DNA of 64,000 nucleotides, taken from NCBI GenBank assembly GCA_963575745.1, contig CAUYUJ010020615.1, forward strand, positions 1,286,236-1,350,235, read 5' to 3'. Source of the DNA: Prorocentrum cordatum (Eukaryota; Sar; Dinophyceae; Prorocentrales; Prorocentraceae). A program made the translations under genes and the position numbers. Under the pieces are notes generated by a model, which saw only the letters and a program-made list of their open reading frames with translations, was not told the DNA's origin and did no database searches. Each line of letters begins with the position of its first letter. The stretch's first letter is position 1. Shown here piece after piece: positions 12,639-50,712 of the stretch.

Positions 12639-13450
12639 TCAGACGTTGCGAGGATGACGGATCTTGTCCTGGTTCAAGCCAGCAATGAGCTTCTCACTGG
12701 CTGTCATGAGCCCTCTGGCTGCTTCGACCGCAACTCCCTCGGCAATGTCAAAATCACTGGCGGACTTGCGTAAGGCGCTGTCGTCTATGTAATCCTGAAA
12801 ATCAACCGTGGGAACTTTGAGCATCATCATATCACGCCGGTCGACTGCGTGCACTTTGATTCCTGTGTCACTGTAGGCGTCACCCGCTGGCGCCCCGAAC
12901 TTGGCGAAAATGCACCGTCTGGGCGCGGTGCCGCCCAAGAAAGTCACTCTCGGGCCCGCCCGCGCGATCGTCGCCAACTTGAGCCAGCAGGCCGGCGCGC
13001 CGCGACGAAGAAACGTACACCTGAGCGCCATCAACGGGATCGACTCATAGCATTTGGAAAAGTCGACAAAGATGGCGACTCCATGTTTGTGAGAAATCTG
13101 GTCCGACTCGGTCCTGGCCGCGAGCGCCCGCGCGCAGTCTATGGCAGACCTGCCTTTGCTGGCCCCCCAGTATTGCCGGCCCACTGCATCATTCATGAAC
13201 TCGACGCATGGGCGACGAGCTCGCTGCCAGACCCCGTAGGTTCCAGCGCGAAGAACTTTCAAACCTGCTGCCTTGGATTGGTTCGCCCAGCATCGGCATC
13301 TGAATCCAACAAATTTGACGCGGGAGAACCCCGACAAATTCTGAGGCCTGGTATATGGGCGCCAAAACTTACAAACCGTCGTCGGCTATCATCGCGAGGT
13401 GCCTCGGGTGACAATTGTCGAAAGAGGCCGCGGCGCCTGCAGGGGGGCCC
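12639..13450 (-). pseudogene. Reverse transcriptase domain of the LINE
   Basis: An open frame of 232 codons (13,337-12,639) contains the polymerase motifs in order: motif A FVDFSKCYES (residues 90-99), motif B GAPAGDAYS (148-156) and motif C DYIDDSA (182-188) with the catalytic Asp pair intact. Upstream, YGVWQRARRPCVEF and GRSAIDCARAL fit the fingers region. The frame ends prematurely: near 12,661 one extra base separates NQDK from the continuing sequence SVILATSESMAHAVCDELGF, which runs on through a basic helix (RREKQARVKQNKRL) to 12,341. The protein region itself is the best-preserved part of the element. Confidence 0.85.
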
Positions 13451-21834: not shown

Positions 21835-22150
21835 TTTCGGCACACCCCTCAGACGTTTCGTGCCCCATAGGGAGCTCCACCGAAGGCCCAGCTGCCAGCG
21901 CTCGCATGCGGCCACCGTGCCCATTTTGGCGCACCCCTCACACGCTTCGTGGCCCCATAGGGAGAAGGCCGAGCTGCCAGCGCTCGCATGCGGCCACCGT
22001 GCCCATTTTGGCACACCCCTCACACGCTTCGTGGCCCCATAGTGAGCCCCACCAAAAGCCCAGCTGCCAGCGCTCGCATGCGGCCACCGTGCCCATTTTG
22101 GCACACCCCTCACACGCTTCGTGGCCCCATAGGGAGCTCCACCCATGCGG
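21835..22150. repeat. 80-90-nt satellite, four units
   Basis: Units contain CTCGCATGCGGCCACC, GTGCCCATTTTGGC, CACCCCTCA and ACGCTTCGTGGCCCCATAG. The last block and GGGAGCTCCACCGAAGG are shared with the 77-nt satellite at 48,930-50,712, so the two arrays are related. Confidence 0.85.
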
Positions 22151-32541: not shown

Positions 32542-32598
32542 AAGAGGCCTCAGAACCACAACCCAGGCACGGTGGCGGGATGGGCCGAAAGCCACTAG

Positions 32599-32725
32599 GA
32601 TCCGCCGCCCCCTGCTTGCAGGGGTGCACGGCGTGCTGGATGTTTCAGGTTTTGGTTTTGGTTCTTTTTCCAAAAGAACTCCCCCAATGGGCTCCGGCAC
32701 GTCCCGCCGGGGTCCCGGGAGGAAG
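32599..32725 (+). repeat. Hairpin cassette 1 (right half only)
   Basis: Starts at GGATCCGCCGCCCCCTG, i.e. inside the second stem. Has the CCCCTGC-TT-GCAGGGG hairpin and GTTCTTTT-TCC-AAAAGAAC. The TTCG tetraloop position reads GGGCTCCGGC. The left half is absent at the array edge. Confidence 0.7.
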
Positions 32726-33404
32726 CCGAAAGGACCTCAATCCGGAAAAAAATCCTCCAAAAAACGGCCGTTTCGCTCGGGACATCCTCAAAAAATCGCG
32801 AAGATGGCCCAAGATGGCCTCCAAGTCCGCCCGAGATGGTCCAAGACGGCCTCCAAAACGGCCCAAGAGAGTCCAAGACGGCCCAAGACGGCCCAAGAGG
32901 CCCCCCAGAGGCCTCCCAGACGGCCCAAGAGGCCTCCAAGAGGTCCTCCAGGAGAGTCCGAAGAGGCCAAAATCATTGATTTTTCCTTGGTTTTTGAAGG
33001 ATTCTGGCATTTGCGCCTTTTCGGCTCTCCGACGGCTCGAGACGGCCCAAGAAGCCCCCAAGATCGCCCAAGAGGCCCCCAAGAGAGCCCCATGATGGCC
33101 CAAGTGGCCTCCAAGATGGCCCCTAGAGGGCCCCAAGAGGGCCCAAGAGGCCTCCAACACGCCCAAGATGGCCTCCCAGACGCCCAAGATGGCCTCCAAG
33201 ACGGCCCTGGAGCATTCCAAGCGGGCCCCAAGTCGGCCCATAGAGGCCCCCCAAACGGCTTCCGACGGCTTCAGACGTGCCAGGAACCCACCAAGATGGC
33301 CGAAGTTGGCTCGAAGCTGGCCCGAGACGGCCCAAAAAGCCCCAAAGATCGCCCAAAGCTTGCCCAAGAGGCCTCCAAGACGGCCAAGATGACCTTCAAG
33401 ATGC

Positions 33405-33655
33405 CCACGTGTTCCCCGAAGGCTTTCCAAACCGATTCGGGGAACACGTGGTCCGATAGCTTGGCAGGTCTGGCCTCAACGTTCGGCCACATAGGCGCTT
33501 CCAAAAAGGCAGGGGGCGGCGGTGATTCGCCGTAGGCGTCTTCGATCCGCCGCCCCCTGCTTGCAGGGGTGCACGGCGTGCTGGATGATTCAGGTTTTGG
33601 TTTTGGTTCTTTTTCTAAAAGAACTCCCCAGTGGGCTTCGGCCCGTCCCGCCGGC
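33405..33655 (+). repeat. Hairpin cassette 2 (complete)
   Basis: Stem 1: CCACGTGTTCCCCGAA (33,405-33,420) with its perfect 16-bp complement at 33,436-33,451. A small TGGCC/GGCCA stem follows. Stem 2: CAGGGGGCGGCGG with a perfect 13-bp complement CCGCCGCCCCCTG around a 24-nt loop. Stem 3: CCCCTGC-TT-GCAGGGG, overlapping the right arm of stem 2. Stem 4: GTTCTTTT-TCT-AAAAGAAC. Stem 5: GGGC-TTCG-GCCC, a classic stable tetraloop hairpin if transcribed. A GGTTTTGGTTTTGG run sits between stems 3 and 4. Confidence 0.85.
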
Positions 33656-34339
33656 CACCCGCGCATTTCCCAAAATGCGTCTGTCAATGCCCAAAAACGG
33701 CCGTTTCGCTCGGGACATCCTCAAAAAATCGCGAAGATGGCCCAAGATGGCCTCCAAGTCCGCCCGAGATGGTCCAAGACGGCCTCCAAAACGGCCCAAG
33801 AGAGTCCAAGACGGCCCAAGACGGCCCAAGAGGCCCCCCAGAGGCCTCCCAGACGGCCCAAGAGGCCTCCAAGAGGTCCTCCAGGAGAGTCCGAAGAGGC
33901 CAAAATCATTGATTTTCCCTTGGTTTTTGAAGGATTTTGGCATTTGCGCCTTTTCGGCTCTCCGACGGCTCAAGACGGCCCAAGAAGCCCCCAAGATCGC
34001 CCAAGAGGCCCCCAAGAGAGCCCCATGATGGCCCAAGTGGCCTCCAAGATGGCCCCTAGAGGGCCCCAAGAGGGCCCAAGAGGCCTCCAACACGCCCAAG
34101 ATGGCCTCCCAGACGCCCAAGATGGCCTCCAAGACGGCCCTGGAGCATTCCAAGCGGGCCCCAAGTCGGCCCATAGAGGCCCCCCAAACGGCTTCCGACG
34201 GCTTCAGACGTGCCAGGAACCCACCAAGATTGGCCGAAGCTTGGCTCGAAGCTGGCCCGAGACGGCCCAAAAAGCCCCAAAGATCGCCCAAAGCTTGCCC
34301 AAGAGGCCTCCAAGACGGCCAAGATGACCTTCAAGATGC

Positions 34340-34604
34340 CCACGTGTTCCCCGAAGGCTTTCCAAACCGATTCGGGGAACACGTGGTCCGATAGCTTGGC
34401 AGGTCTGGCCTCAACGTTCGGCCACATAGGCGCTTCCAAAAAGGCAGGGGGCGGCGGTGATTCGCCGTAGGCGTCTTCGATCCGCCGCCCCCTGTGGTCT
34501 TGCCACAGGGGTGCACGGCGTGCTGGATGTTTCAGGTTTTGGTTTTGGTTCTTTTTCTAAAAGAACTCCCCAGTGGGCTTCGGCCCGTCCCGCCGGCCAC
34601 CCGC
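34340..34604 (+). repeat. Hairpin cassette 3 (complete)
   Basis: Stem 1 perfect over 16 bp as in cassette 2. Stem 3 is longer: CCCCTGTGG-TCTTG-CCACAGGGG, with matching changes on both sides. Confidence 0.85.
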
Positions 34605-35509
34605 AAGTTTCCGAAAATCCATCTGTCAATGCCTTTGTTGCCCCAACTTGGCCCAAGATGGCCTCCAAGACGGCCAAGATGGCCCAAGATGGCCTCCAAG
34701 ATGCTTCCAAGACGGCCAAGATGGCCTCCAAGACGGGTAAGATGGCTCCAAGATGCACCCAAGACGGCCCAAGATGGCCTCAAGATGGTCTAAGACGGCC
34801 CAAAAGGCCCGCAAAAGGCCTCCAAGACGGCCCAAGAGCCCTCCAAGACGCCCTCCAGGAAGGCCCGAATAGGTTAAAATCATTGATTTTCCTTAGGTTT
34901 TTCAAGGATTTTGGCATGTTCTTCTTTTCAGCTCTCCGACGGCCCAAGACGGCCCAAGAGGTCCCCAACATCGCCCCAACAGCACCCAAGAGGCCTCCAA
35001 GATGGCCCCATGACGGCCCAAGAGGCCCCCAAGAAGGCCCCAAGAGGGCCTCAAGACGGCCCAAGAGGCCTCCAAGACGCCCAAGATGGCCTCCAAGACG
35101 GCCAAGATGGCCCAAGATGGCCTCCAAGATGCCTCCAAGACGGCCAAGATGGCCTCCAAGACGGGTAAGATGGCTCCAAGATGCACCCAAGACGGTCCAA
35201 GATGGCCTCAAGATGGTCTAAGACGGCCCAAAAGGCCGGCAAAAGGCCTCCAAGACGGCCCAAGAGCCCTCCAAGACGCCCTCCAGGAAGGCCCGAATAG
35301 GTTAAAATCATTGATTTTCCTAAGGTTTTTGAAGGATTTTGACATGTTCTTCTTTTCAGCTCCAAAGCAAGGCATCCATAGAGGCCCCCAAGATGCTTCC
35401 AAGACCGCACATGTGGCCCAATATAAACCCAGAGTAGCCAAAAAGGCACTCAAGAGACCTCCTCCTCCATTCCCCCCCTTCCTATCTCTCCTCTCCTCCC
35501 CGTCCTCCC

Positions 35510-35790
35510 CCACGTGTTCCCCGAAGGCTGTAAAGACCGATTCGGGGAACATATGGCCCAATAACTTGGCAGACCTCTGGCCACAGCAGTCGGCCGCATC
35601 GGCGCTTCCGAAAGGGCAGGGGGCGGCGGTGATTCGCCGTAGGCGTCTTCGATCCGCCGCCCCTTTTGCTTCAGCAACGGGGTGCCCGGCGTGCCAAATC
35701 CTATCGGTTTTGGTTTTGGTTCTTTCTGTTCTTTTTCCAAAAGAACTCTCCCAGTGGGTTTCGGCCCGTCCCGCCGGTGTCCCGGGATTT
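35510..35790 (+). repeat. Hairpin cassette 4 (complete, diverged)
   Basis: Stem 1 arms GTGTTCCCCGAA/TTCGGGGAACA are kept although the loop differs (GGCTGTAAAGACCGA). Stem 3 upper part is TTGCT-TC-AGCAA, a different but still paired sequence. Stem 5 is GGGT-TTCG-GCCC with a G-T pair. Confidence 0.8.
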
Positions 35791-36594
35791 TTTCCAAGGA
35801 CCTCACTTCCCCAATTTTCTGCCCCAGACGGCTCCAAGATGGCCTCCAAGATGGCCAAGATGGCCCAAGATGGCCTCCAAGATGGTCCAAGATCGCCTCC
35901 AAGTCCGCCCAAGATGGTCCAAGACGGCCTCCAAGACGGCCCAAGAGAGTCCAAGGGGGACCCAGACGGCCCAAGAGGCCCCCCAGAGGCCTCCCAGACG
36001 GCGCAAGAAGCCTCCAAGAGCTCCTCCAGGAGGGCCCGAAGAGGCCAAAATCATTGATTGTCCTTGGGTCTTTAAAGGATTTTGGAATTTGCTTCTTCTC
36101 GACATTCCGACGGGCTGAGGACGGCCCAAGAGGCCCCCAAGATCGCCCAAGAGGCCCCCAAGAGGGCCCCATGACGGCCCAAGTGGCCTCCAAGATGGCC
36201 CCAAGAGGGCCCCAAGACGGCCCAAGAGGCCTCCAACACGCCCAAGATGGCCTCCAAGACGCCCAAGATGGCCTCCAAGACGGCCCCGAAGCGCCCCAAG
36301 AGGGTCCCCCGTTGGCCCAGAAAGGCCCCCCAGACGGCGTCAGGCGTGCCAAGAACCCACCAAGATGGCCGAAGTTGGCTCGAAGCTGGCCCAAGCCGGC
36401 CCAAGAGGCCCCCAAGAGGGCCTCCAGGAAGGCCAGAAGAGGCCAAACACATTGATTGTCCTTAGGTTTTTGACGGATTTTGACATTTCCTTCTTTTCGG
36501 CCTTCCGACGGCCCGAGACTGCCCAAGAGCCCCCAGAGATCGCCGAAAGATCGCCCAAGAGGCCTTCAAGGCGGCCAAGATGACCTTCAAGACG

Positions 36595-36683
36595 CCCACG
36601 TGTTCCCCGAAAGCTTGCCAAACCGATTCGGGGAACACATGGTCCGATGGCTTGGCAGGTCTGGCCTCAACGTTCGGCCACAC
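36595..36683 (+). repeat. Hairpin cassette 5 (truncated)
   Basis: Contains stem 1 and the GGCC hairpin (to GTTCGGCCACA), then returns directly to satellite. Stems 2-5 are missing. Confidence 0.8.
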
Positions 36684-37421
36684 AAGACGGCCAGGATGAC
36701 CTCCAAGACGGCCCCAGATGGCCTCCAAGTCCGCCCAAGATGGTCCAAGACTGCCTCCAAGACGGCCTCAGAGAGTTCAAGACTGCCCAAGACGGCCCAA
36801 GAGGCCCCCCAGAGGCCTCCCAGACGGCCCAAGAGCCCTCGAAGAGCTCCTCCAGGAGGGCCCGAAGATGCCAAAATCATTGATTGTCCTAAGGTGTTTG
36901 AAGGATTTTGGAATTTGCTTCTTCTCGGCATTCTGACGGGTCAAGACGGCCCAAGAGGCCCCCAAGATCGTCCAAGAGGCCCCCAAGAGGGCCCCATGAC
37001 GGCCCAAGTGGCCTCCAAGATGGCTCCAAGAGGGCCCCAAGACGGCCCAAGAGGCCTCTAACACGCCCACCATGGCCTCCAAGACGCCCAAGATGGCCTC
37101 CAAGACGGCCCCGAAGCGCCCCAAGAGGGTCCCCCGTTGGCCCAGAAAGGCGCCCGAGACGGCTCCCGACGGCGTCAGACGTGCCAGGAACCCACCAAGA
37201 TGGCCGAAGTTGGCTCGAAGCTGGCCCAAGGCGGCCCAAGAGGCCCCCAAGAGGGCCTCCAGGAAGCCCAGAAGAGGCCAAAAACATTGATTGTCCTTCG
37301 GTTCTTGACTGATTTTGACGGTTTCTTCTTTTCGGCTTTCTGACGGCCCGAGACAGCCCAAGAGCCCCCAAAGATCGCCCACTTGGGGCCTCCAAGACGG
37401 CCACGATGACCTTCAAGATAC

Positions 37422-37464
37422 CCACGTGTTCCCCGAAGGCTTTCCAAACCGATTCGGGGAACAC
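37422..37464 (+). repeat. Hairpin cassette 6 (stem 1 only)
   Basis: Only GTGTTCCCCGAA, the 15-nt loop and TTCGGGGAACAC remain, flanked at once by satellite units. Confidence 0.85.
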
Positions 37465-38204
37465 CCCAAGATGGCCTCCAAGATGGCCAAGATGGCCTCC
37501 AAGATGGCCTCCAAGTCCGTCCAAGATGGTCCAAGACGGCCTCCAAGACGGCCCAAGAGAGTCCAAGACGGCCCAAGAGGCCCCCCAGAGGCCTCCCAGA
37601 CGACCCAAGAGGCTTCCAAGAGGTCCTCAAGGAGGGCCCGAAGAGGCCAAAATCATTGATTGTCCTTGGGTTTGCAAGATTTGGGAATTTGCTTCTTCAC
37701 GTCATTCCGACGGCTCAAGACGGCCCAAGAGGCCCCAAAGATCGCCCGAGAGGCCCCCAAGTGGGCCCCATGACGGCCCAAGTGGCCTCCAAGATGGCCC
37801 CAAGAGGGCCCCAAGATGGCCCAAGAGTCCTCCAACACGCCCAAGATGGCCTCCAAGACTCCCAAGATGGCCTCCAAGATGGCCCCGAAGCGCCCCAAGA
37901 GGGTCCCCCGTTGGCCCAGAAAGGCACCCGAGACGGCTCCCGACGGCGTCAGACGTGCCAGGAACCCACCAAGATGGCCGAAGTTGGCTCGAAGCTGGCC
38001 CAAGACGGCCCAAGAGGCCCCCAAGAGGGCCTCCAGGAAGGCCAGAAGAGGCCAAAAACATTGATTGTCATTCGGTTCTTGACGGATTCTGACACTTTCT
38101 TCTTTTCGGCTTTCCGACGGCCCGAGACGGCCCAATACCCCCCAAAGATCGCACACAGATCGCCCAAGAGGCCTCCAAGACGGCCAAGATGACCGTCAAG
38201 ATGC

Positions 38205-38465
38205 CCACGTGTTCCCCGAAGGCTTTCCAAACCGATTCGGGGAACACATGGTCCGATGGCTTGGCAGGTCTGGCCTCAACGTTCGGCCACATAGGCGCTT
38301 CCACAAAGGCAGGGGGCGGCGGTGATTCGCCGTAGGCGTCTTCGATCCGCCGCCCCCTGTCGATTCATCGCAGGGGTGCCTGGCGTGCTGAACCCTCTAG
38401 GTTTTGGTTTTGGTTCTTTGTCCAAAAAAACTCCCCCTGGGGCTTCGGCCCGTCCCGCCGGCCAC
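38205..38465 (+). repeat. Hairpin cassette 7 (complete)
   Basis: Stem 3 upper part is CGAT-TC-ATCG. Stem 4 is weakened (GTTCTTTGTCCAAAAAAAC). Stem 1 has one mismatch (CGTG/CATG). Confidence 0.85.
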
Positions 38466-39266
38466 ACGGAAAGCGCCGAATTCCCAAAATTCCTGCCCAA
38501 GACTGCTCCAAAAACGGCTGTTTTTCTCGGGACATCCTCAACAAATCGCGAAGATGGCCCAAGATGGCCTCCAAGTCCGCCCAAGATGGTCCAAGACGGC
38601 CTCCAAGACGGCCCAAGAGAGTCCAAGACGGCCCAAGAGGCCCCCCAGAGGCCTCCCAGACGACCCAAGAGCCCTCCAAGAGGTCCTCCAGGAGGGCCCG
38701 AAGAGGCCAAAATCATTGATTGTCCTTAGTTGTTTGAAGGATTTTGGCATTTGCGCCTTTTCGGCTGTCCGACGGCTCAAGACGGCCCAAGAAGCCCCGA
38801 AGATCGCCCAAGAGGCCCCCAGGAGGGCCCCATGACGGCCCAAGTGGCCTCCAAGATGGCTTCAAGAGGGCCCCAAGACGGCCCAAGAGACCTCCAACAC
38901 GCCCAAGATGGCCTCCAAGACGCCCAAGATGGCCTCCAAGACGGCCCTGGAGCATTCCAAGAGGGCCCCAAGTCGGCCCATTGAGGCACCCCAAACGGCT
39001 TCCGACGGCGTCGGACGTGCCAGGAACCAACCAAGATGGCCGAAGTTGGCTCGAAGCTGGCCCAAGACGGCCCAAGAGGCTCCCAAGAGGGCCTCCAGGA
39101 AGGCCAGAAGAGGCCAAAAACATTGATTGTCCTTCGGTTCTTGACGGATTCTGACATGTTCTTCTTTTCGGCCTTCCGACGGCCCGAGACGGCCCAAGAG
39201 CCCCCAAAGATCGCCGAAAGATTGCCCAAAAGGCCTCCAAGACGGCCAAGATGACCTTCAAGATGC

Positions 39267-39525
39267 CCACGTGTTCCCCGAAGGCTTTCCAAACCAAATC
39301 GGGGAACACATGGTCCGATAGCTTGGCAGGTGTGGCCTCAACGTTCGGCCACATAGGCGCTTCCACAAAGGCAGGGGGCGGCGGTGATTCGCCGTAGGCG
39401 TCTTCGATCCGCCGCCCCCTGTTGATTCATCACAGGGGTGCCTGGCGTGCTGAACCCTCTAGGTTTTGGTTCTTTTTCCCAAAGAACTCCCCCTGGGGCT
39501 TCGGCCCGTCCTACCGGCCACCCGG
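39267..39525 (+). repeat. Hairpin cassette 8 (complete)
   Basis: Stem 3 upper part is TGAT-TC-ATCA, differing from cassette 7 by a C-G to T-A exchange on both sides. Stem 1 loop ends CCAAA instead of CCGAT. Confidence 0.85.
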
Positions 39526-39800
39526 AAGACTCCCAATTCCCCAATTTGTCGCTCAAGATGGCCCAGAATTGCCTCCAAGATAGCCACGTTGGCCCAATAT
39601 GGCCTCCAAGATGGTCCAAGATGGCTTTCCAAGACGCCCAAGAGACTCCAAGACGGCCCAAGATGGCCCAAGAGGCCCCCCAAACCAAACCCGGGCAAAC
39701 GGCGATGTTGCTTAACGGCGAGGTTGAGAACCTGATGTTTAATACCCCCCGCTCGCAGTGTAAACTCGATGAATTCGGTGCCATGGCGCACTTACTCACG

Positions 39801-40335
39801 CAGGACGAAAGATTTTCCTCTCGAGGTGCAAATGGCCATGAGGAGTTCGCAAGACAACGTCGGCGCCGGAACGGACGGCGACCAGACGAGCTGTTTGCAG
39901 CAACCGGGATGAGAGGGATGTATGTATTCATTTCGAATGGGACCCGCGCGCGTGGGGAGCTGGTGGGTGTGCGCGAGACGACGCAACGCCCATCGTGGAG
40001 AGTTAATTACCGAACCCCCCATCCCCCGTAGAATCTTAACACGGGCGGTTTGCGGGGTCCGCGGATCCGATTTCTTCCGGCTCCCTGTTAAAATTGAATT
40101 ATAAAAATTTAAAACAGGGTAGAAATCGGACCCGCCGTGAAAAATAAGACCGAACACGGATCCAGCAAATCCGAAATCGGATCCGCGCGGACAGAAATCG
40201 GATCCACCGAAACACACCAAAACCAAAATTGGATCCGCGCGGCCTTCATTGGATCCGACGGTGGGTATCTCACACGCGTCTGCTTCGGGCTTCAAACCTT
40301 CGTTCTGGACCCAGGAGGAAAAAACTTTCGTCCTG
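39801..40335. mobile_element. 535-bp TIR element, copy 1
   Basis: Starts CAGGACGAAAGATTTTCC and ends with CTTTCGTCCTG, a near-perfect inverted repeat of about 20 bp. Near the middle an inverted repeat (GGATCCGATTTC...CCCTGTT / AACAGGG...GAAATCGGA) forms a second hairpin. GGATCCGCGCGG and related GGATCC units recur in the right half. Non-coding. Confidence 0.8.
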
Positions 40336-41071
40336 GGGATGAGCGTTGGCCTTCGGACACGTTGGTTGCCACGTTGTCCACGCACCGCACATCACCACAA
40401 ATTCCCCGCAACGTTCCTGCTCGAGACGTCCTCGCAACACTCGGAAGAAGACTCCCACCCGTTGGTTCGAGTTCTCGTTCGGGACGTCCTCGCGAAAGCT
40501 TGCGTTTCGGATTCGGAGTCGTGATGGGCCACGCCGGAGCCCGCCAACCAGGGGAAGGCCTCCTTCTTTTCTGGCGTTGCGCTGGCCTCCAAATCAACAC
40601 GGCGAGATCGAAAACGGTCGCTGGCAACGTCGTCCGAGGCATCCGCAAGACGTGCAGGGAGATCCACGCCCTCGGAGGTGGGGCTGCGAGGCGGGGTTGA
40701 GCGCGGGAGCGCGCCCGCGCGCGGCCTCGGCGACCGGCGGCGGCCGCCGTCCGCGTGCGCGTGGATCGGCGAGGCGAACATGAATGATGTTAGTGTGCAC
40801 GCGCACGAAACGGCAAATGTTGATGATGTTCAGTTGCACGTGCACGACTCGGTGAGGCGCCTCATCCGAGAGCCAAATTTGAAAATCGGTCGTCGCCGTC
40901 GCCTCCGGCGCCGGCAACGCCCTCCTCGTGCTCGTTCGGCGGCGACCGCGCGAACGTCATTGGAGTTGCGACGACGGAGCCCGCGCCGAGCGCGGGGCGC
41001 CGCCTCGTCGCGGGAGAGAGCGCAGAGGCCGCCCGTTGGGAAAGGAGACGCAGGGCCGAACCGCACTTACG
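40336..41071. other. Segment between the paired 535-bp elements
   Basis: 736 bp of mixed sequence, open in several frames. I see no transposase, polymerase or integrase motif. Confidence 0.45.
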
Positions 41072-41607
41072 CAGGACGAAAGATTTTCCTCTTGAGGTGC
41101 AAATGGCCATTAGGAGTTCGCAAGACAACGTCGGCGCCGGAACGGACGGCGACCAGACGAGCTGTTTGCAGCAACCGGGGTGAGAGGGATGTATGTATTC
41201 ATTTCGAATGGGACCCGCGCGCGCGGGGAGCTGGTGGGTATGAGCGAAGACGACGCAACACCCATCGTGGAGAGTTAATTACCGAACCCCCCATCCCCCG
41301 TAGAATCTTAACACGGGCGGTTTGCGGGGTCCGCGGATCCGATTTCTTCCGGCTCCCTGTTTTAATTGAATTATATAAATTTAAAACAGGGTGGAAATCG
41401 GATCCGCCGTGAAAAATAAGACCGAACATGGATCCAGCAAATCCGAAATCGGATCCGCGCGGACAGAAATCGGATCCACCGAAACACACCAAAACCAAAA
41501 TTGGATCCGCGCGGCCTTCATTGGATCCGACGGTGGGTATCTCACACGCGTCTGCTTCGGGCTTCAAACCTTCGTTCTGGGCCCAAGAGGAAAAAACTTT
41601 CGTCCTG
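41072..41607. mobile_element. 535-bp TIR element, copy 2
   Basis: Direct-orientation copy of 39,801-40,335 with few differences. Its central palindrome is better preserved (CCCTGTTTTAA...TTAAAACAGGG). Its flanks share CGCACTTAC on the left and GGGATG on the right with copy 1, so the duplicated block may extend slightly past the TIRs. Confidence 0.8.
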
Positions 41608-41764
41608 GGGATGTACTTTCCATCTTGACGAAAACAAGCTTCAACATCATTGTTCAAGTGTTCCCGAACGCTTACAGGCGTCAAAGCCGTGCGCGCGCCG
41701 CACGTGCAACTATCGCGCGCGCTCGTTTGAACTCGGACGTCGTTGCGACGCAGAGCCCACGCAA

Positions 41765-41885
41765 AACGAAATGTAGTAAATCACGAAACACCGTTTCCTA
41801 CATTTCAAATTTGCGAATGTTTCGAGCGAGAACGACACCGCGAAATGTAGGAATGCACGAACCACGCTTTCCTACAAAAGGCTCG
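41765..41885. repeat. Two tandem hairpins
   Basis: GAAATGTAGTAA ... TTTCCTACATTTC (41,769-41,810) and TGTAGGAA ... TTTCCTACA (41,846-41,878) are hairpins of the same design with CACGAA-CAC loops, about 75 nt apart. Confidence 0.7.
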
Positions 41886-43233
41886 GCCACCAACAACGCT
41901 TTCCTTCAATCGTTTTTCCTGCGTCGCCGTTATCCGCGTCGCCGTTTAACCGTCTACGGCGCGATATTCTGAGTTCGTAGGAAATCCAATAATACATGCA
42001 AACAAGGCTGCTTTTCATGCAAGTCGCACCTGCGAGACACGGTTCCCCCGAAACCAATGCCGCCAGCACGCGAGCCAGCCTCATCGACAATACCAAAACC
42101 TACATCGCCGTTAGCTACATCGCCGTTTGCCCGTCTACGGCCAAAGGCCTCCAAGACGGCCCAAGAGGCCTCCAAGAGGTCCTCCAGGAGGGCCCGAAGA
42201 GGCCAAAATCATTGATTTCCCATGCGTTTTTGAAGGATTCTGGCATTCGCTTACTTTCGGCTTTCCGACGACGCAAGACGGCCCAAGAGGCCCCCAAGAT
42301 CGCCCCCACAGCGCCCAAGAGGCCTTCAAGATTGCCTCAGGACTGCCCAAGAGGCCCCCAAGACGGCCCCAAGAGGGCACAAAGAGGACCCAAGAGGCCC
42401 CCAAGACGCCCAAGATGGCCTCTAAGACGGCCCTGGAGCACCCCAAGAGGGCCCCAAGTCGGCCCAGAAAGGCCCCCCAAACGGCTTCCGACGGCGTCAG
42501 ACGGGCCAGGAGCCCACCAAGATGGCCGAAGTTGTCTCGAAGCTGGCCCAAGACGGCCCAAGAGGCCTCCAAGAGGGCCTCCAGAAAGGCCAGAGAAGGC
42601 CAAAAACACAGATTTCCCATAGGTTTTCGAAGGATTCTGACATTTGCTTCGGGTCGGCTTTCCGACTGCCCGATACAGCCTAAAAGCCCCCAAAGATCGC
42701 CCAAGAGGCCTCCAAGATGACCCCAGAACGGCCCAAGAGGCCCCCAAGACGGCCCCAGAGGGCACCAAGACGGCCCAGGAGGCTGGAAAGACGCCCAGGA
42801 TGGCCTCCAAGACGGCCCTGGAGCATTCCAAGAGGCCCCCCCCCAAACGGCTTCCGACGGCGTCGGACGGGCCAGGGGCCCACCAAGGCGGCCGAAGATG
42901 GCACTAAGATGGCCCAAGACGGCCCAAGAGGCCTCCAAGAGGGCCACCAGGAAGGCCTGACAAGGCCAAAATCATTGATTTCCCATGGGTTTTTGAAGGA
43001 TTGTGGCATTTGCTTTTTGTTCTGCCTTCCGACGGCCCGAGACGGCCCCAGTGCCCCCAAAGATCGCCCAAGAGGCCCAAGACCGCCCCAAGAGGCCCCC
43101 AAGACGGCCCAAGAGGCCTCCAAGACGCTCAAGATGGCCTCCAAGACCGCTTAAGAGCTCTCCAAGACGTCCCCCAAGAAGGCCCGAAACGGTCAAAATG
43201 GCCTCCAGGCGGCCAAGGTGACCTTCAAGATGC

Positions 43234-43505
43234 CCACGTGTTCCCCGAAGGCTTTCCAAACCGATTCGGGGAACACATGGTCCGATAGCTTGGCAGGTCT
43301 GGCCTCAACGTTCGGCCACATAGGCGCTTCCAAAAAGGGAGGGGGCGGCGGTGATTCGCCGTAGGCGTCTTCGATCCGCCGCCCCCTGTCGATGCATCGC
43401 AGGGGTGCCTGGCGCGCTGGACACTTTCGGTTTTGATGTTGGTTCTTTTCCCCCCCCCAAACAAATAACTCCACCTGGCGCTTTGGCCCGTCCCGCCGGG
43501 GTCCT
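43234..43505 (+). repeat. Hairpin cassette 9 (stem 4 lost)
   Basis: Stem 3 upper part is CGAT-GC-ATCG. The stem 4 region is replaced by a C run (GTTCTTTTCCCCCCCCC), and stem 5 is altered to GCGCTTTGGC. Confidence 0.8.
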
Positions 43506-44841
43506 GGGAGGCTCTTCCAGGAGCGCATACTCTGGAACAAATCCTCCCTGAAACGGCCGTTTCGCTCGGGACATCCTCAACAAATCGCGAAGATGGCCCA
43601 AGATGGCCTCCAAGTCCGCCCAAGATGGTCCAAGACGGCCTCCAAGACGGCCCAAGAGAGTCCAAGACAGCCCAAGACGGCCCAAGAGGCCCCCCAGAGG
43701 CCTCCCAGACGGCCCAAGATGCCTCCAAGAGGTCCTCCAGGAGGGCCCGACGAGGCCAAAATCAAGGATGTTCCTTGGGTCTTTAAAAGATTTTGGAGTT
43801 TGCTTCTTCTCGACATTCCGACGGCTGAGGACGGCCCAAGAGGCCCCCAAGATCGCCCAAGAGACCCCCAAGTTGGCCCCATGACGGCCCAAGTGGCCTC
43901 CAAGATGGCCCCAAGAGGGCCCCACGACGGCCCAAGAGGCCTCCAACACGCCCAAGATGGCCTCCAAGACGCCCAAGATGGCCTCCAAGACGGCCCCGAA
44001 GCGCCCCAAGAGGGTCCCCCGTTGGCCCAGAAAGGCTCCCAAGACGGCTCCCGACGGCGTCGGACGTGCCAGGAACCCACCAAGATGGCCGAAGTTGGCT
44101 CGAAGCTGGCCCAAGACGGCCCACGAGGCCCCCAAGAGGTCCTCCAGGAGGGCCAGAACAGGCCAAAAACATTGAATGTCCTACGGTGTTTGACGGATTT
44201 TGACATTTCCTTCTTTTCAGCCTTCCGGCGGCCCGAGACGGCCCAAGAGCTCCCAAAGATCGCCGAAAGATCGCCCAAGAGGCCTCCAAGATGGCCCCAG
44301 AACGGCCCAAGAGGGCTCCAGAACGGCCCAAGAGGGCTCCAAGAGGCCCCCAAGACGGCACAGGACGCCTTTAAGACGCCCAAGATGGCCTCCAAGACGG
44401 CCCTGGAACATTCCAAGAGCGCCCCAAGTCGGCCCATAGAGGCGCCCCAAACGGCTTCCGACGGCGTCAGACGGACCAGGAGCCCACCAAGACGGCCGAA
44501 CATGGCCCCAAGATGGCCCAAGACGGCCCAAGAGGCCTCCAAGAGGGCCTCCAGGAAGGCCTGAAAAAGGCCAAAGCGTTGATTTCCTATGGTTTTTGAA
44601 GGACTGTGGCATTTGCTTTTTGTTCTGCTTTCCGACGGCCAGAGACGGCCCTAGTGCCCCCAAAGATCGCCCACGAGGCCCAAGACACGGCCCAAAGAGG
44701 CCCCCAATACGGCCCAAGAGGCCTCCAAGACGCTCAAGATGGCCTCCAAGACCGCCCAAGAGCCCTCCAAGACGTCCTCCAAGAAGGCCCGAAAGGGTCC
44801 AAATGGCCTCCAGACGGCGGCCAAGATGACCTTCAAGATGC

Positions 44842-45105
44842 CCACGTGTTCCCCGAAGGCTTTCCAAACCGATTCGGGGAACACATGGTCCGATAGCTTG
44901 GCAGGTCTGGCCTCAACGTTCGGCCACATAGGCGCTTCCAAAAAGGCAGGGGGCGGCGGTGATTCGCCGTAGGCGTCTTCGATCCGCCGCCCCTTGTCGA
45001 TTCATCGCAGGGGTGCCTGGCGTGCCAGATGATTTCGGTTTTGGTGTTGGTTCTTTTCCAAAAGAACTTCCCCTTGGGCTCCGGCGCGTCCCGCCGGGGT
45101 CCCGG
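44842..45105 (+). repeat. Hairpin cassette 10 (complete)
   Basis: Stem 4 is GTTCTTTT-CC-AAAAGAAC. Stem 3 upper part CGAT-TC-ATCG. Stem 5 reads GCTCCGGC. Confidence 0.8.
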
Positions 45106-46596
45106 AAAGATCTTCCAGACCCAGCTCCAAAGGGTTTTTCCTGCTCCAGACGTCTGCAAGACGGCCTCCAAGACGGCTAAGATGGCCCCAAGATGCCTCC
45201 AAGACGGCCCAAGATGCACCCAAGACGGCTTCAGATAGCCTCAAGATGGCCCAAGACGGCCCAAGAGGCTCCCAAGAGGCCTCCAAGACAGCCCAAGAGG
45301 CCTCCAAGAGATCCTCCAGGAGGGCCCGAAGAGGCCAAAATCATTGATTTTCCTTAATTAGGTGTTTGAAGGACTTTTTTGCATTTGCTCCATTTTGGCT
45401 TTCCGACGACCCAAGACGGCCCAAGAGGCCCCCAACATCGCCCCCAGAGCGCCTAGAGGCCTCCAAGATGGCCTCAGGACTGCCCAAGAGGCCCCCAAGA
45501 CGGGCCCAAGAGGGCACCAAGACGCCCCTCAGAGGCCTCCAAGACGCCCAAGATTACCTCTAAGACGGCCCTGGAGCACCCCAAGAGGGACCCAAGTCGG
45601 CCCAGAGAGGCCCCTGGCGTCAGACGGGCCAGGAGCCCACCAAGATGGCCAAAGTTGGCTCGAAGCTGGCCCAAGACGGCCCAAGAGGCCTCCAAGAGGT
45701 CCTCCAGGAGGGCCAGAAGAGGCCAAGATCATTGATTGTCCTTAGGTTTTTGAAGGATTTTGACATTTGCTTCTTTTCGGCCTTCCGGCGGCCCGAGACG
45801 GCCCAAGAGCCACCCAAGATCGCCCAAGAGGCCTCCAAGAAGGCCCTAGAACGGCCCAAGAAGCCCCCAAGACGGCCCAGGAGGCTTTTGAGACGCCCAA
45901 GATGGCCTCCAAGACGGCCCTGGAACATTCCAAGAGGGCCCCAAGTCGGCCCAGAGAGGCCCCCCAAACGGCTTCCGACGGCGTCAGACGGGCCAGGAGC
46001 CCACCAAGACGGCCCAAGAGGCCCCCAAGAGGCTGCCAATACGACCAAAGAGGCCTCCAAGAGGTCCTCCAGGGGAAGGCCCGAAGAGGCAGAAATCATT
46101 GATTTTCCTTAGGTGTTTGAAAGATTGTGGCATTTTCTTTTTTCGGCCTTCCGACTGCCCGAGACGGCCCGTGGCCCCCGAAGATCGCCCAAGAGGCCTC
46201 CAGTATGGCCCCAGAACGGCCCAAGAGGCCCCCAAGACGGCCCAAGAGGCCACCAAGACGCCCAAGATGACCTCCAAGACGGCCCTGGAGCACCCCAAGA
46301 GGGCCCCAAGTCGGCCCAGAGAGGCCCCCAAGACGGCGTCCGACGGCGTCAGACGGGCCAGGAGTCCACCAAGACAGCCAAAGAGGCCACCAAGAAGCCC
46401 CCAAGAAGGCCAAAGAGCCCACCAAGACGGCCGAAAGATCCAAGAGGCTCCCAGGAAGCTCCCAGGAGGCCACAAGAGTGTCCCCAGAGGCTCCCAACAT
46501 GCCCCCTCCTCCTCCTCCTCCTCCTCCTCCTCCTCCTCCTCCTGCTCCTCCAACTCCTCCTCCGCATCCTCTTGATCTTCCCCGCCATCCTCCCCC

Positions 46597-46865
46597 AAGT
46601 GTTTCCCGAAGGCTTTCCACAACGGTTGGGGGAACACATGGCCCGATACCTTGGCAGAGGTTTTGCCACAACGCTCGGCCACATGGTCGATTATAGAAGG
46701 CGGGGGGCGGCGGTGATTCGCCGTAAGCGTCTTCGATCCGCCGCCCCCTGTCGATTCATCACAGCGGTGCAAGGCGTGCCGAATCCTTTCGCTGTTGGTT
46801 TTGGTTCTTTTTCCAAAAGAACTCCCACTGGGGTTTCGGCATCGTTTGCCGGGGTCCCGGAATGG
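46597..46865 (+). repeat. Hairpin cassette 11 (diverged)
   Basis: Stem 1 is weakened (GTGTTTCCCGAA/TTGGGGGAACAC), stem 3 has an A-C mismatch and a broken GGGG run (CAGCGGTG), stem 4 is perfect. Confidence 0.75.
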
Positions 46866-47913
46866 CCCGGAAAGAGTGGTTCCAACAGTTTTTCCTGCTC
46901 CAGATGGCTCCAAGATGGCTTCCAAGATGGCCTCCAGGTTCGCCCAAGATGGTCCAAGATGGCCTCCAAGACGACCCAGCAGAGTCCAAGATGCCTCCAA
47001 GTTCGCACAAGAAAGCTCTCAGACGGCCCAAGACGGCCAAAGAGGCCTCCAAGAGGCCTCCAAGACGGCCCCCGAGGCCTCCAAGAGGTCCTCCACGAGA
47101 GGCCGAAGAGGTCAAAATCAATGTTTTTCTTCGGTTTTTTTATGGATTCTGGCTTTTGTTATTTTCAAGCCTTCCGACGGCTCACGACGGCCCAAGGAGC
47201 CCGAAAGATCGCCCCCAGAGCGCCCAAGAGGCCTCCAAGATAGCCCTATCATGGCCCAAGAGGCCCCCAAGACGGCCCCAAGAGGGCGCCAAGACGGCTC
47301 CAGCGGCCTCCAAGACGCTCAAGACGGTCTCCAAGACGGCCTCCAAGATGCTTCCAACACGGTCAAGATGAGCTTCAAGACTGCCAAGATGGCCGCTAAG
47401 ACGGCCAAGATGGCCCAAGATGGGCCCTAGAGGTTCCAAGATTGCCCCAAAGGAGTCCAAGAGGTACTCCAAAAGGCCCGAGAGAGCCACAATCTTCAAT
47501 TTTCCTTAGGTGTTTGAAGGATGTTTGGCAGTTTCTTCTTTTCAACTCTCCGACGTCCCATGACGGCCCAAGAGGCCCCCAACATCGCCCCACGAGCGCC
47601 CAAGAGGCCTCCAAGATGGCCCCATGACAGGCCAAGAGGCCCCCGAGAGGGCCCCAACAAGACCCCAAGACGGCCCAAGAGGCCCCTAAGACGCCCAAGA
47701 TGGCCTCCAAGACAGCCAAGATGGCCTCCAAGATACCTCCAAGACGGCCAAGAAGGCCTCCAAGACGGCGAAGATGGCCGAAGATGCACCCACGACAACC
47801 CCAGATGGCCTGAAGGCCCGCCAGAGGCCTCCAAGACGGCCCAAGACCCCTCCAAGACGTCCTCCAGGAAGCCCGAAAGCTCGGAAACCACCTGGTCCGA
47901 TAGCTGCCCGACT

Positions 47914-48058
47914 CCGTGTTCCCCGAAGGCTTTCGAAACCCACTCGGGGAACGCGTGGCCCGACAGCGTTGCCAAGCTCAAACCCAACTTTCGGCCACGC
48001 AGGCGCTTCCGTAAAGGCAGGAGGCGGCGGTGATTTGCCGTAGGCGTCTTCGATAACG
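47914..48058 (+). repeat. Hairpin cassette 12 (truncated at right array edge)
   Basis: Stem 1 GTGTTCCCCGA/TCGGGGAACGC keeps pairing with a G-T. The left arm of stem 2 is present (GGAGGCGGCGG), and the sequence ends at GTCTTCGATAACGCC, where the array also ends. Confidence 0.75.
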
Positions 48059-48060
48059 CC

Positions 48061-48210
48061 AACGTTTCAATTTGCCCTGATGACTCCTATACGCCCCCGC
48101 ATGCTGTTCCTAGATGCGCCAAGGCAGCGCCGAGACGCACCGGCGCGACTCTGTGATACCCCATTCTGATAGAGAGGGGACCAGCGGCAGGGGGCGAAGC
48201 CCTTACGGAT
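48061..48210. other. Short spacer
   Basis: Unique-looking sequence between the satellite edge and the GAT microsatellite; nothing recognised. Confidence 0.5.
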
Positions 48211-48480: not shown

Positions 48481-48929
48481 AATGCGATTGGCAATCGTAA
48501 GGATGATGATGAACATGATCATCGCCAATGGGTTGTCCCGAACCGGATCGGGATCGGATCGGCGTGCGCGACTCTGGCGGGCCCCGGCCGATGCAAGTGA
48601 AATGGGCGGATGCTGGTGAATCGCAGCCCCAAATGGCGAATCGAATCGCTTCGAATCGGATCGGAGGTGGCCATGCCTGCGACTCCTCGACCCAGGCGCT
48701 CGTGGATATGGCGTGCTGAGCGACCTCGCGGTTGGCTGCGATGGCCTCGCGGTGCGTGCTCGCGTCCTTCGGCAAAGGCCGCCCAGGGGGGGCGGGTATA
48801 GCAGAATTCGTTTCCCAACCATCCTTTTTGGTCCTTGTTTTGAAGAGACGGCGTCCCGCGTTCCCGCATCCCGCCTCCTTCCTTCCCCTCCTCCTTCCTC
48901 CCATCCGCCTCGACAGCTCCCTGCGTTTC
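48481..48929. other. No gene recognised
   Basis: Contains GGATCGGGATCGGATCGG and CGAATCGAATCGCTTCG short repeats at 48,540-48,665. Otherwise spacer. Confidence 0.45.
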
Positions 48930-50712
48930 ACCCACCGACGACAGCGCTTCGTGGCCCCATAGGGGGCTCCACCGAAGGCTCCAGTGGCACAGGCCGCATG
49001 CGTCACCGCCACCCAAGACAGCGCTTCGTGGTCCAATAATAAGGAGCTCCACCGAATGATCCAGTGGCACAGGCCGCATGTGTCACAGCCACCCAGGACA
49101 GCGCTTCGTGGCCCCAGAGGGAGCTCTACCGAAGGCTCCAATGGCTCATGCCGCATGCGTCACCGCCACCCAGGACAGCGCTTCGTGGCCCCATAGGGAG
49201 CTCCACCGAAGGCTCCAGTGGCACAAGCCGCATGCGTCAACGCCATCCACGCAGGACAAAGTTCCGTGGCCCCATAGGGAGCTCCTCCGAAGGCTCTAGT
49301 GGCACAGGTGCGTCACCGCCACCCAGGACAACGTTTCGTGGTCCCATAGGGAGCTCCACCGGAGGCTCCAGTGGCACAGGCCGCATACGTCAACGCCATC
49401 CAGGACAACGCCCCGTGGCCCCATAGAGAGCTCCGCCGAAGGCTCCAGTGGCACAGGCCGCGTGCGTCACCGCCACCCACGACAGCGCTTCGTGGCCCCA
49501 TAATAAGGAGCTCCACCGACTGCTCCAGTGGTACAGGCCGCATGCGTCACCGCCACCCAGGACAGCGCTTCGTGGCCCCATAGGGAGCTCCTCCACCGAA
49601 GATTCCAATGGCTCATGCCGCATGCGTCACCGCCACCCAGGACAGCGCTTCGTGGCCCCATAGGGAGCTCCACCGAAGGCTCCAGTGGCACAGGCCACAT
49701 GCGACACCGCCACCAAGGACAACGCTTCTTGGCCCCATAGGGAGCTCCACCGAACGCTCCAGTGGCACAGGCCGCATGCGCCACCGCCACCCACGACAGC
49801 GCTTCGTGGCCCCATAGGGAGCTCCACCGAAGGCTCCAGTGGTTCAGGCCGCACACGTCAACGCCATCCAGGACAGCGCTCCGTGGCCCCATAGAGAGCT
49901 CCACCGAAGGCTCTAGTGGCACAGGCCGCACACGTCAACGCCACCCAAAACAGCGCTTCATGGCCCCGTATGGGGGTTCCACCGAAGGCTCCAGTGGCGC
50001 AGGCCGCATGCGTCACCGCCACCCAGGACAGCGTGTCGTGGCCCTAGAGGGAGCTCCGCCGAAGGCTCCAGTGGCACAGTCCGCATGCGTCACCGCCACC
50101 CACAACTGCGCTTCGTGGCCCCATAGGGAGCTCCACAGAATGCTCCAATGGCTCATGCCGCATGCGTCACCGCCGCCCAGGACAACGCTTTGTGGCCCCG
50201 TAGGGAGCTCCACCAAATGCTCCAATGGCTCATGCCGCATGCGTCACCGCCACCCAAGACAGCACTTCGTGGCCCCATAGGGAGCTCCACCGAAGGCTCC
50301 ACAGGCACAGGCCACACACGTCAACGCCATCCAGGACAACGCTCCGTGGCCCCATAGAGAGTTCCACCGAAGGCTCTAGTGGTACAGGCCGTATGCGTCA
50401 CCGCCACCCAGGACAGCGTTCCGTGGCCCCCTAGGGAGCTCCACCGAAGGCTCCAGTGGCACAGGCCGCATGCGTCACCGCCACCCAGAACAGCGCTTCG
50501 TGGTCCTATAGGGAACTCCACCGAACGCTCCAGTGGCACAGGCCGCATGCGTCACCGCCACCCACGACAGCGCTTCGTGGCCCCATAGGGAGCTCCTCCA
50601 CCGAAGGCTCCAGAGGCACAGGCCGCATACGTCAACGCCATCCAGGACAACGTTCCGTGGCCCCATAGAGAGTTCCGCCGAAGGCTCCAATGGCACAGGC
50701 CGCATGCGTCAT
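48930..50712. repeat. 77-nt satellite, about 23 units
   Basis: Unit blocks: GGAGCTCCACCGAAGGCTCC, AGTGGCACAGGCCGCATGCG, TCACCGCCACCCAGGACAGC, GCTTCGTGGCCCCATAG. Units are 77 nt with occasional +3 insertions (for example AATAAGGAGC). Because 77 is not a multiple of three, the three frames rotate through the array and no protein is plausible. Shares two blocks with the 21,835-22,150 satellite. Confidence 0.95.

Follow-up and report, generated by a model that had tools for sequence, protein, structure and literature searches.

What is a multi-hairpin cassette that recurs through a satellite in a dinoflagellate genome? A cassette of this kind lies in Prorocentrum cordatum (GenBank assembly GCA_963575745.1), on the forward strand of contig CAUYUJ010020615.1 at positions 1,286,236 to 1,350,235 (64,000 nucleotides, referred to here as the window and numbered from its first letter). 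A first-pass annotation, made from the letters alone, had offered three guesses: a structured RNA, a hairpin-type mobile element, or a recombination site. We conclude that the array at positions 32601 to 48053 most probably consists of nine copies, chained head to tail, of a Helitron2-like element that is nonautonomous and of the rolling-circle type; we call it family A, and the AAGAYGGCC satellite forms its interior. The conclusion draws on unit termini and seams, on copy numbers in the thousands, on sites where the two flanks meet with no chain between them, and on the presence of RepHel genes in this genome. As judged by sequence comparison, the cassette is a seam at which the 3' end of one mobile unit meets the 5' start of its successor, and the stretch between two seams is the candidate for the moving unit. 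The mobile element was thus the best of the three guesses, although the cassette, being a seam of termini, is not itself the moving unit.

A blastn search with three reference copies recovered 12 cassette loci in the window, the number originally reported, all on the forward strand; minus-strand matches involved only the self-complementary stem 1. Eight loci were near complete (33396, 34331, 35509, 38196, 39258, 43225, 44833, and 46594). Four partial copies were also present (32571, 36587, 37413, and 47915): the first and last mark where the chain begins and ends, and the other two are truncated ends within its fourth unit. In the whole assembly (4.13 Gb; 21,875 contigs), a 29-mer from the middle of the cassette occurred 7,275 times and its reversed control not once; the repetition is therefore not due to chance. 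An exact 22-mer spanning the 3'|5' seam occurred 4,580 times (reversed control, 0). A 28-mer was searched for in IMG/VR and GTDB contigs without an exact hit.

The seam became visible where the cassette broke off. In several of 30 loci retrieved with the exact 29-mer, similarity stopped right after ...GGCGTCTTCGA(T). Ten A 3' ends on hand had neither an A start nor a start of the B unit (see below) behind them, and nine of these, from six contigs, were compared (L008 was omitted because the locus stops within 40 nt). Identity amounted to 0.96 to 0.98 up to the boundary and 1.00 for the following base, and fell to 0.26 to 0.28 thereafter; given that eight of the nine ends were picked by the exact 29-mer ending in T, the identity before the boundary is partly selected, while the drop after it is not. 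T was the next base in all 30 pattern-selected ends and in 62 of 65 ends that were not selected by the pattern. Because similarity stops at a fixed base in midcassette, the downstream half (TCCGCCGCCCCCTG...) is the start of another unit. The initial idea had been open to refutation by copies that always covaried with the flanking satellite; the nine 3' ends instead lead, from the same base, into mutually unrelated sequences. This also speaks against an ordinary higher-order satellite, generated by unequal crossing-over and segmental duplication, in which the termini would be mere unit edges and no transposition would have occurred.

Each A unit starts with TCCGCCGCCCCCTG, which opens a 5' hairpin (CCCCTG..CAGGGG), and carries a second hairpin, GGCGGTGATTCGCC, that ends 14 nt upstream of the 3' terminus and is followed by a short tail, GTAGGCGTCTTCGA, and then nearly always by T. 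An asymmetric inverted repeat of 13 bp joins the two ends: its 5' copy, CCGCCGCCCCCTG, returns inverted as CAGGGGGCGGCGG, ending 23 nt short of the 3' terminus. In unit 5, these features are the 5' terminus TCCGCCGCCCCCTG with the 5' inverted-repeat copy (38346 to 38359), the 5' hairpin (38354 to 38376), the 3' inverted-repeat copy CAGGGGGCGGCGG (39372 to 39384), and the 3' hairpin GGCGGTGATTCGCC, which was folded (39380 to 39393). The same unit contains a GGGC-TTCG-GCCC segment in its 5' region (38440 to 38461; an inverted relative of the X end introduced below) and, near its 3' end, stem 1 of the original description (39267 to 39313); all of these are on the forward strand. The stems of the first-pass annotation are accordingly present as described. 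Its stem 2, a perfect 13 bp, is the inverted repeat and, in the cassette, bridges the seam of two units rather than forming the stem of one object.

Changes that kept stem arms paired had been taken as a sign of selection on a folded form or of a copying mechanism, and the covariation itself was confirmed in part. Stem 3, which is the 5' hairpin with its variable top, was paired in 90% of cells, and 20 cells carried double changes (shuffle mean, 7.7; 0 of 2,000 shuffles reached 20), confined to three of the nine pairs. Sliding the stem by -1, +1, or +2 lowered the paired share to 45 to 58%. Of 83 5' ends, 62 were of the 34-nt form and gave the 39 unique sequences tested (the other 21 were left out); kinship among copies inflates such a test. 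The longest stem, stem 1, was 81% paired in 65 unique sequences of 107 and showed no covariation signal beyond shuffles, 757 of 1,000 of which reached the observed number of double changes. The covariation of stem 3 and the thousands of conserved copies would suit a tandemly amplified gene for a structured RNA. We consider such a gene very improbable, since the fixed-base break in similarity would halve the RNA in many copies, stem 1 does not covary, and neither Rfam (0 matches at gathering cutoffs) nor a tRNA scan yielded a match.

Read as seams, the cassettes divide the window array into nine abutting units with eight 3'|5' seams, both ends being kept at each seam. The first A unit starts at 32601, directly behind an X-type end (32567 to 32600; a GGCC-GAA-GGCC-like hairpin and then CACTAGGA), and runs from TCCGCC... 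to ...TTCGA (unit 1, 32601 to 33545, 945 bp). It is followed by unit 2 (33546 to 34480; 935 bp), the interior of which is 97% identical to that of unit 1, unit 3 (34481 to 35652; 1,172 bp), unit 4 (35653 to 38345; 2,693 bp), with two truncated 3' regions inside (36587 to 36682 and 37413 to 37464), unit 5 (38346 to 39407; 1,062 bp), unit 6 (39408 to 43374; 3,967 bp), unit 7 (43375 to 44982; 1,608 bp), unit 8 (44983 to 46736; 1,754 bp), and unit 9 (46737 to 48053; 1,317 bp). All termini were located on the forward strand. The seam between units 5 and 6 (39407/39408), one of the eight, reads TTCGA and then TCCGCC. The last A end is followed by TAACGCC, the start of a B unit (48054 to 48209, 156 bp, TAACGCC...TTACGGA, forward strand), the 3' end of which meets unrelated DNA. 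Units shorter than 2.2 kb measured 397 to 1,754 bp between seams (54 units). Unit 6 contains a foreign insert with direct repeats of about 549 bp (39794 to 40341 and 41065 to 41613; 96.9% identical; about 720 bp between them), which looks like a miniature long terminal repeat (TRIM-like) element. The satellite body (32601 to 48053) has an AAGA period of 10.47 bp, near the helical repeat of DNA, and tandem periods of 21, 32, 42, 53, and 63 bp lie near multiples of it.

The flanks of the chain also occur without it. A genome search with the right flank (48054 to 48200) gave 1,364 candidates, of which 40 were scored and 30 retrieved. In 24 of the 30 loci, found independently of the 29-mer pattern, the match came after an A 3' end that stopped at the same base as before (the window is one of the 24, and two pairs, L045/L048 and L063/L065, are duplicates). 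In five others, a relative of the left flank X came first: three joins (L051, L059, and L066) were exact at A|T, with nothing gained or lost, L040 had three extra bases, and L056 had G instead of T. An exact 22-mer of the flanks joined without A occurred 50 times in the genome. Compared with these joins, the array places 15.45 kb, with exact borders, between the two sequences. The joins, which count against a pure satellite, may be preinsertion sites or X|B chains that never held A. In the last locus (L047, around position 1500), a B unit had an unrelated left flank, and B may therefore also stand alone, with TAACGCC as its own 5' edge.

Unlike units (A, B, and X) were thus chained together. 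Twenty candidate 5' starts lacked an A 3' end immediately before them: 11 came behind X (...GGCCGAAGGCCACTAGGA), 3 were at a locus edge, and 6 had another context (2 of these being chance matches); the exact X|A 5' seam occurred 229 times in the genome. B comes behind A or X, and its ...TTACGGA end is followed by unrelated DNA, with T as the next base in 28 of 33 ends. There were 188 exact X ends, and the 83 on contigs up to C13902 were classified by hand: A was next in 61, B in 7, and neither exact string in 15. Given this mix, X and B could instead form one element, with X as its inner half and a favored point of insertion. Against this, contig C4191 contains three X|A 5' seams within 3.6 kb, as if X also acted as a unit end within an array.

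The claim that the cassette is far better conserved than the surrounding satellite holds within the window. Mean pairwise identity was 0.72 for the first 120 bp and 0.85 for the last 150 bp (eight of nine units; unit 6, with its insert, was omitted), compared with 0.52 for the interiors (seven of nine; unit 4 also omitted) and a block-shuffled floor of 0.33. The near-identical interiors of units 1 and 2 and the truncated cassettes within unit 4 are what an ordinary higher-order satellite would give. In addition, the 5' ends in the window were, on average, slightly closer to one another than to those of other loci in seven of nine cases, as expected from local duplication. Conversely, the single closest match of a window 5' end lay outside the window in eight of nine cases, with one tie, although more units were compared outside. 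Together with the flank joins and the unrelated sequences behind the 3' ends, this makes a satellite without transposition improbable.

The favored reading, a chain of Helitron2-like elements, finds its closest counterpart in Helitron2 of Fusarium oxysporum. As described in PMC5148889, Helitron2 has an inverted repeat, two hairpins, and a T after the target. FoHeli1 and FoHeli2 share with A a 5' TC, an asymmetric terminal inverted repeat, hairpins at both ends, and insertion before T; the 3' copy of the repeat lies about 20 to 50 bp from the end (23 nt in A), and molecules with joined ends are reported. The same text gives ATTTT as the 3' end of FoHeli1 and FoHeli2, in contrast to TTCGA in A, and one near-tandem case (FoHeli4), in contrast to long chains; A is also filled with satellite and has no coding partner identified. 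Tandem Helitrons are cited there for bat, Drosophila, rice, and maize. The nonautonomous Helentrons DINE-1 and HINE, according to PMC4067079, resemble A in being short and noncoding, with subterminal inverted repeats, a palindrome near the 3' end, and, in some copies, central tandem repeats; they differ in that DINE-1 favors TT targets, in contrast to A|T here, and in A only one base separates the inverted repeat from the 5' end. Elements of the Helentron type that carry central tandem repeats, as well as satellites derived from Helitrons, are on record (PMC4067079 and PMC12628747). Tandem Helitron arrays in plant centromeres (Xiong et al. 2016, as cited in PMC12628747) likewise show rolling-circle elements forming satellite-like arrays, but in many of those a single 3' end is combined with several 5' ends. 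The present array stands apart in its long chain, with both ends kept at each window seam, and in the chaining of unlike units.

Machinery for such an element is abundant in the genome. PF14214 (Helitron_like_N) had at least 151 matches (1,615 candidates, 150 scored) and none in 14 control genomes, and the reading frame of L074 aligned with Helraiser (7lcc) over query residues 207 to 987 (1.6e-148). No Pfam match was obtained for 21 open reading frames (ORFs) of the array or for 10 ORFs of the window, one of which is in the array, and a tblastn search of the RepHel reading frames against the window and loci L001 to L068 returned nothing. Two candidate partners were rejected. A RepHel family of 1,797 amino acids differs from A in its termini and has a 3' end that is palindromic and lies beside TA repeats. 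The RepHel candidate on contig C428 neighbors A seams, and immediately downstream of it is the 3' end of this same family, which sits there in a TA repeat within an A unit, downstream of a PF14214 match. A 12.7-kb RepHel element with a palindromic 3' end (L079 to L082) is 99.8% identical on two contigs, and TA repeats lie behind both copies and the C428 copy.

Several points weigh against a Helitron2-like chain. No autonomous element with A termini was found, and both RepHel elements with readable ends have different ones. The A 3' end is not the canonical CTRR of Helitron1 (by Helitron1 criteria, A has the TC start, and its hairpin ends 14 nt from the terminus instead of the canonical 10 to 12 nt), and 3 of the 65 unselected 3' ends lack the following T. 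No A insertion was found in plainly unique DNA with an intact empty site: the left flank of L010, a locus at first taken as a free-standing A copy, recurs elsewhere, and no match spans the joined flanks. (Reading that flank as another terminus was dropped, as the query itself changes there; the flank sequence also occurs in tandem at C21666:390334-390955, mostly with 80- to 90-bp spacing.) The X|B joins could be chains without any past A rather than preinsertion sites, and the GA|T microhomology makes a target-site duplication of 1 to 3 nt formally possible at some sites, including the three exact joins. The greater mutual similarity of the window 5' ends counts here as well. Finally, the association between 5' and 3' subtypes, after removal of loci chosen by seam similarity, was similar within units (r = 0.294; 42 units; reached by 26 of 5,000 permutations) and across seams (r = 0.249; 41 seams; 124 of 5,000), favoring no one mode of chain formation; with all loci except L001 and L039, the values were 0.296 and 0.329.

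The lack of a transposase tied to the A termini, the 3' end other than CTRR, and the unusual placement directly behind other ends would also suit another mobile class that resembles a Helitron only in looks, i.e., a single-strand hairpin transposon, a tyrosine-recombinase element, or a foldback element. The asymmetric inverted repeat, the two hairpins, and the placement before T fit Helitron2 as described in PMC5148889, and RepHel genes abound in the genome; we therefore assign this alternative little probability. For the Helitron2-like reading, a RepHel enzyme would act at the A 5' terminus, one strand would be copied by rolling-circle replication that stops at the 3' hairpin, and the copy would be inserted between A and T. 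Chains would grow by insertion of a unit immediately after the 3' end of an A or X element already in place, by repeated copying of circular intermediates, or by both. A broader proposal, which we hold to be rather doubtful, is that rolling-circle elements of the A, B, and X families preferentially insert at the precise point where the 3' terminus of another such element ends. Ordered polymers would then grow unit by unit and, in the dinoflagellate nucleus, which is poor in nucleosomes, would become a large chromosome component with a 10.5-bp AAGA phase, built by transposition and not by crossing-over.

Elsewhere in the window, a second satellite of about 80 to 90 bp (GCTTCGTGGCCCCATAGGGAGCTCC) seems to be present at 48900 to 50700 and 21882 to 22143. 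An ORF on the reverse strand (12639 to 13337) contains a stretch that we take, from its motif (IFVDFSKCYESIPL...), to resemble reverse transcriptase.

The word Helitron is absent from the P. cordatum genome paper and from a dinoflagellate genomics review (main texts only, supplements being outside the search), and our search found no paper joining Prorocentrum and Helitron; one dinoflagellate paper names helitrons in Symbiodiniaceae. The present analysis explains the multi-hairpin cassette as a transposon seam and pins down the exact termini of a family whose 3' core occurs 7,275 times without mismatch in the assembly. The chains offer a direct route to asking whether the 3' ends of rolling-circle elements are targets for other such elements, and they also bear on how transposons become satellite DNA.

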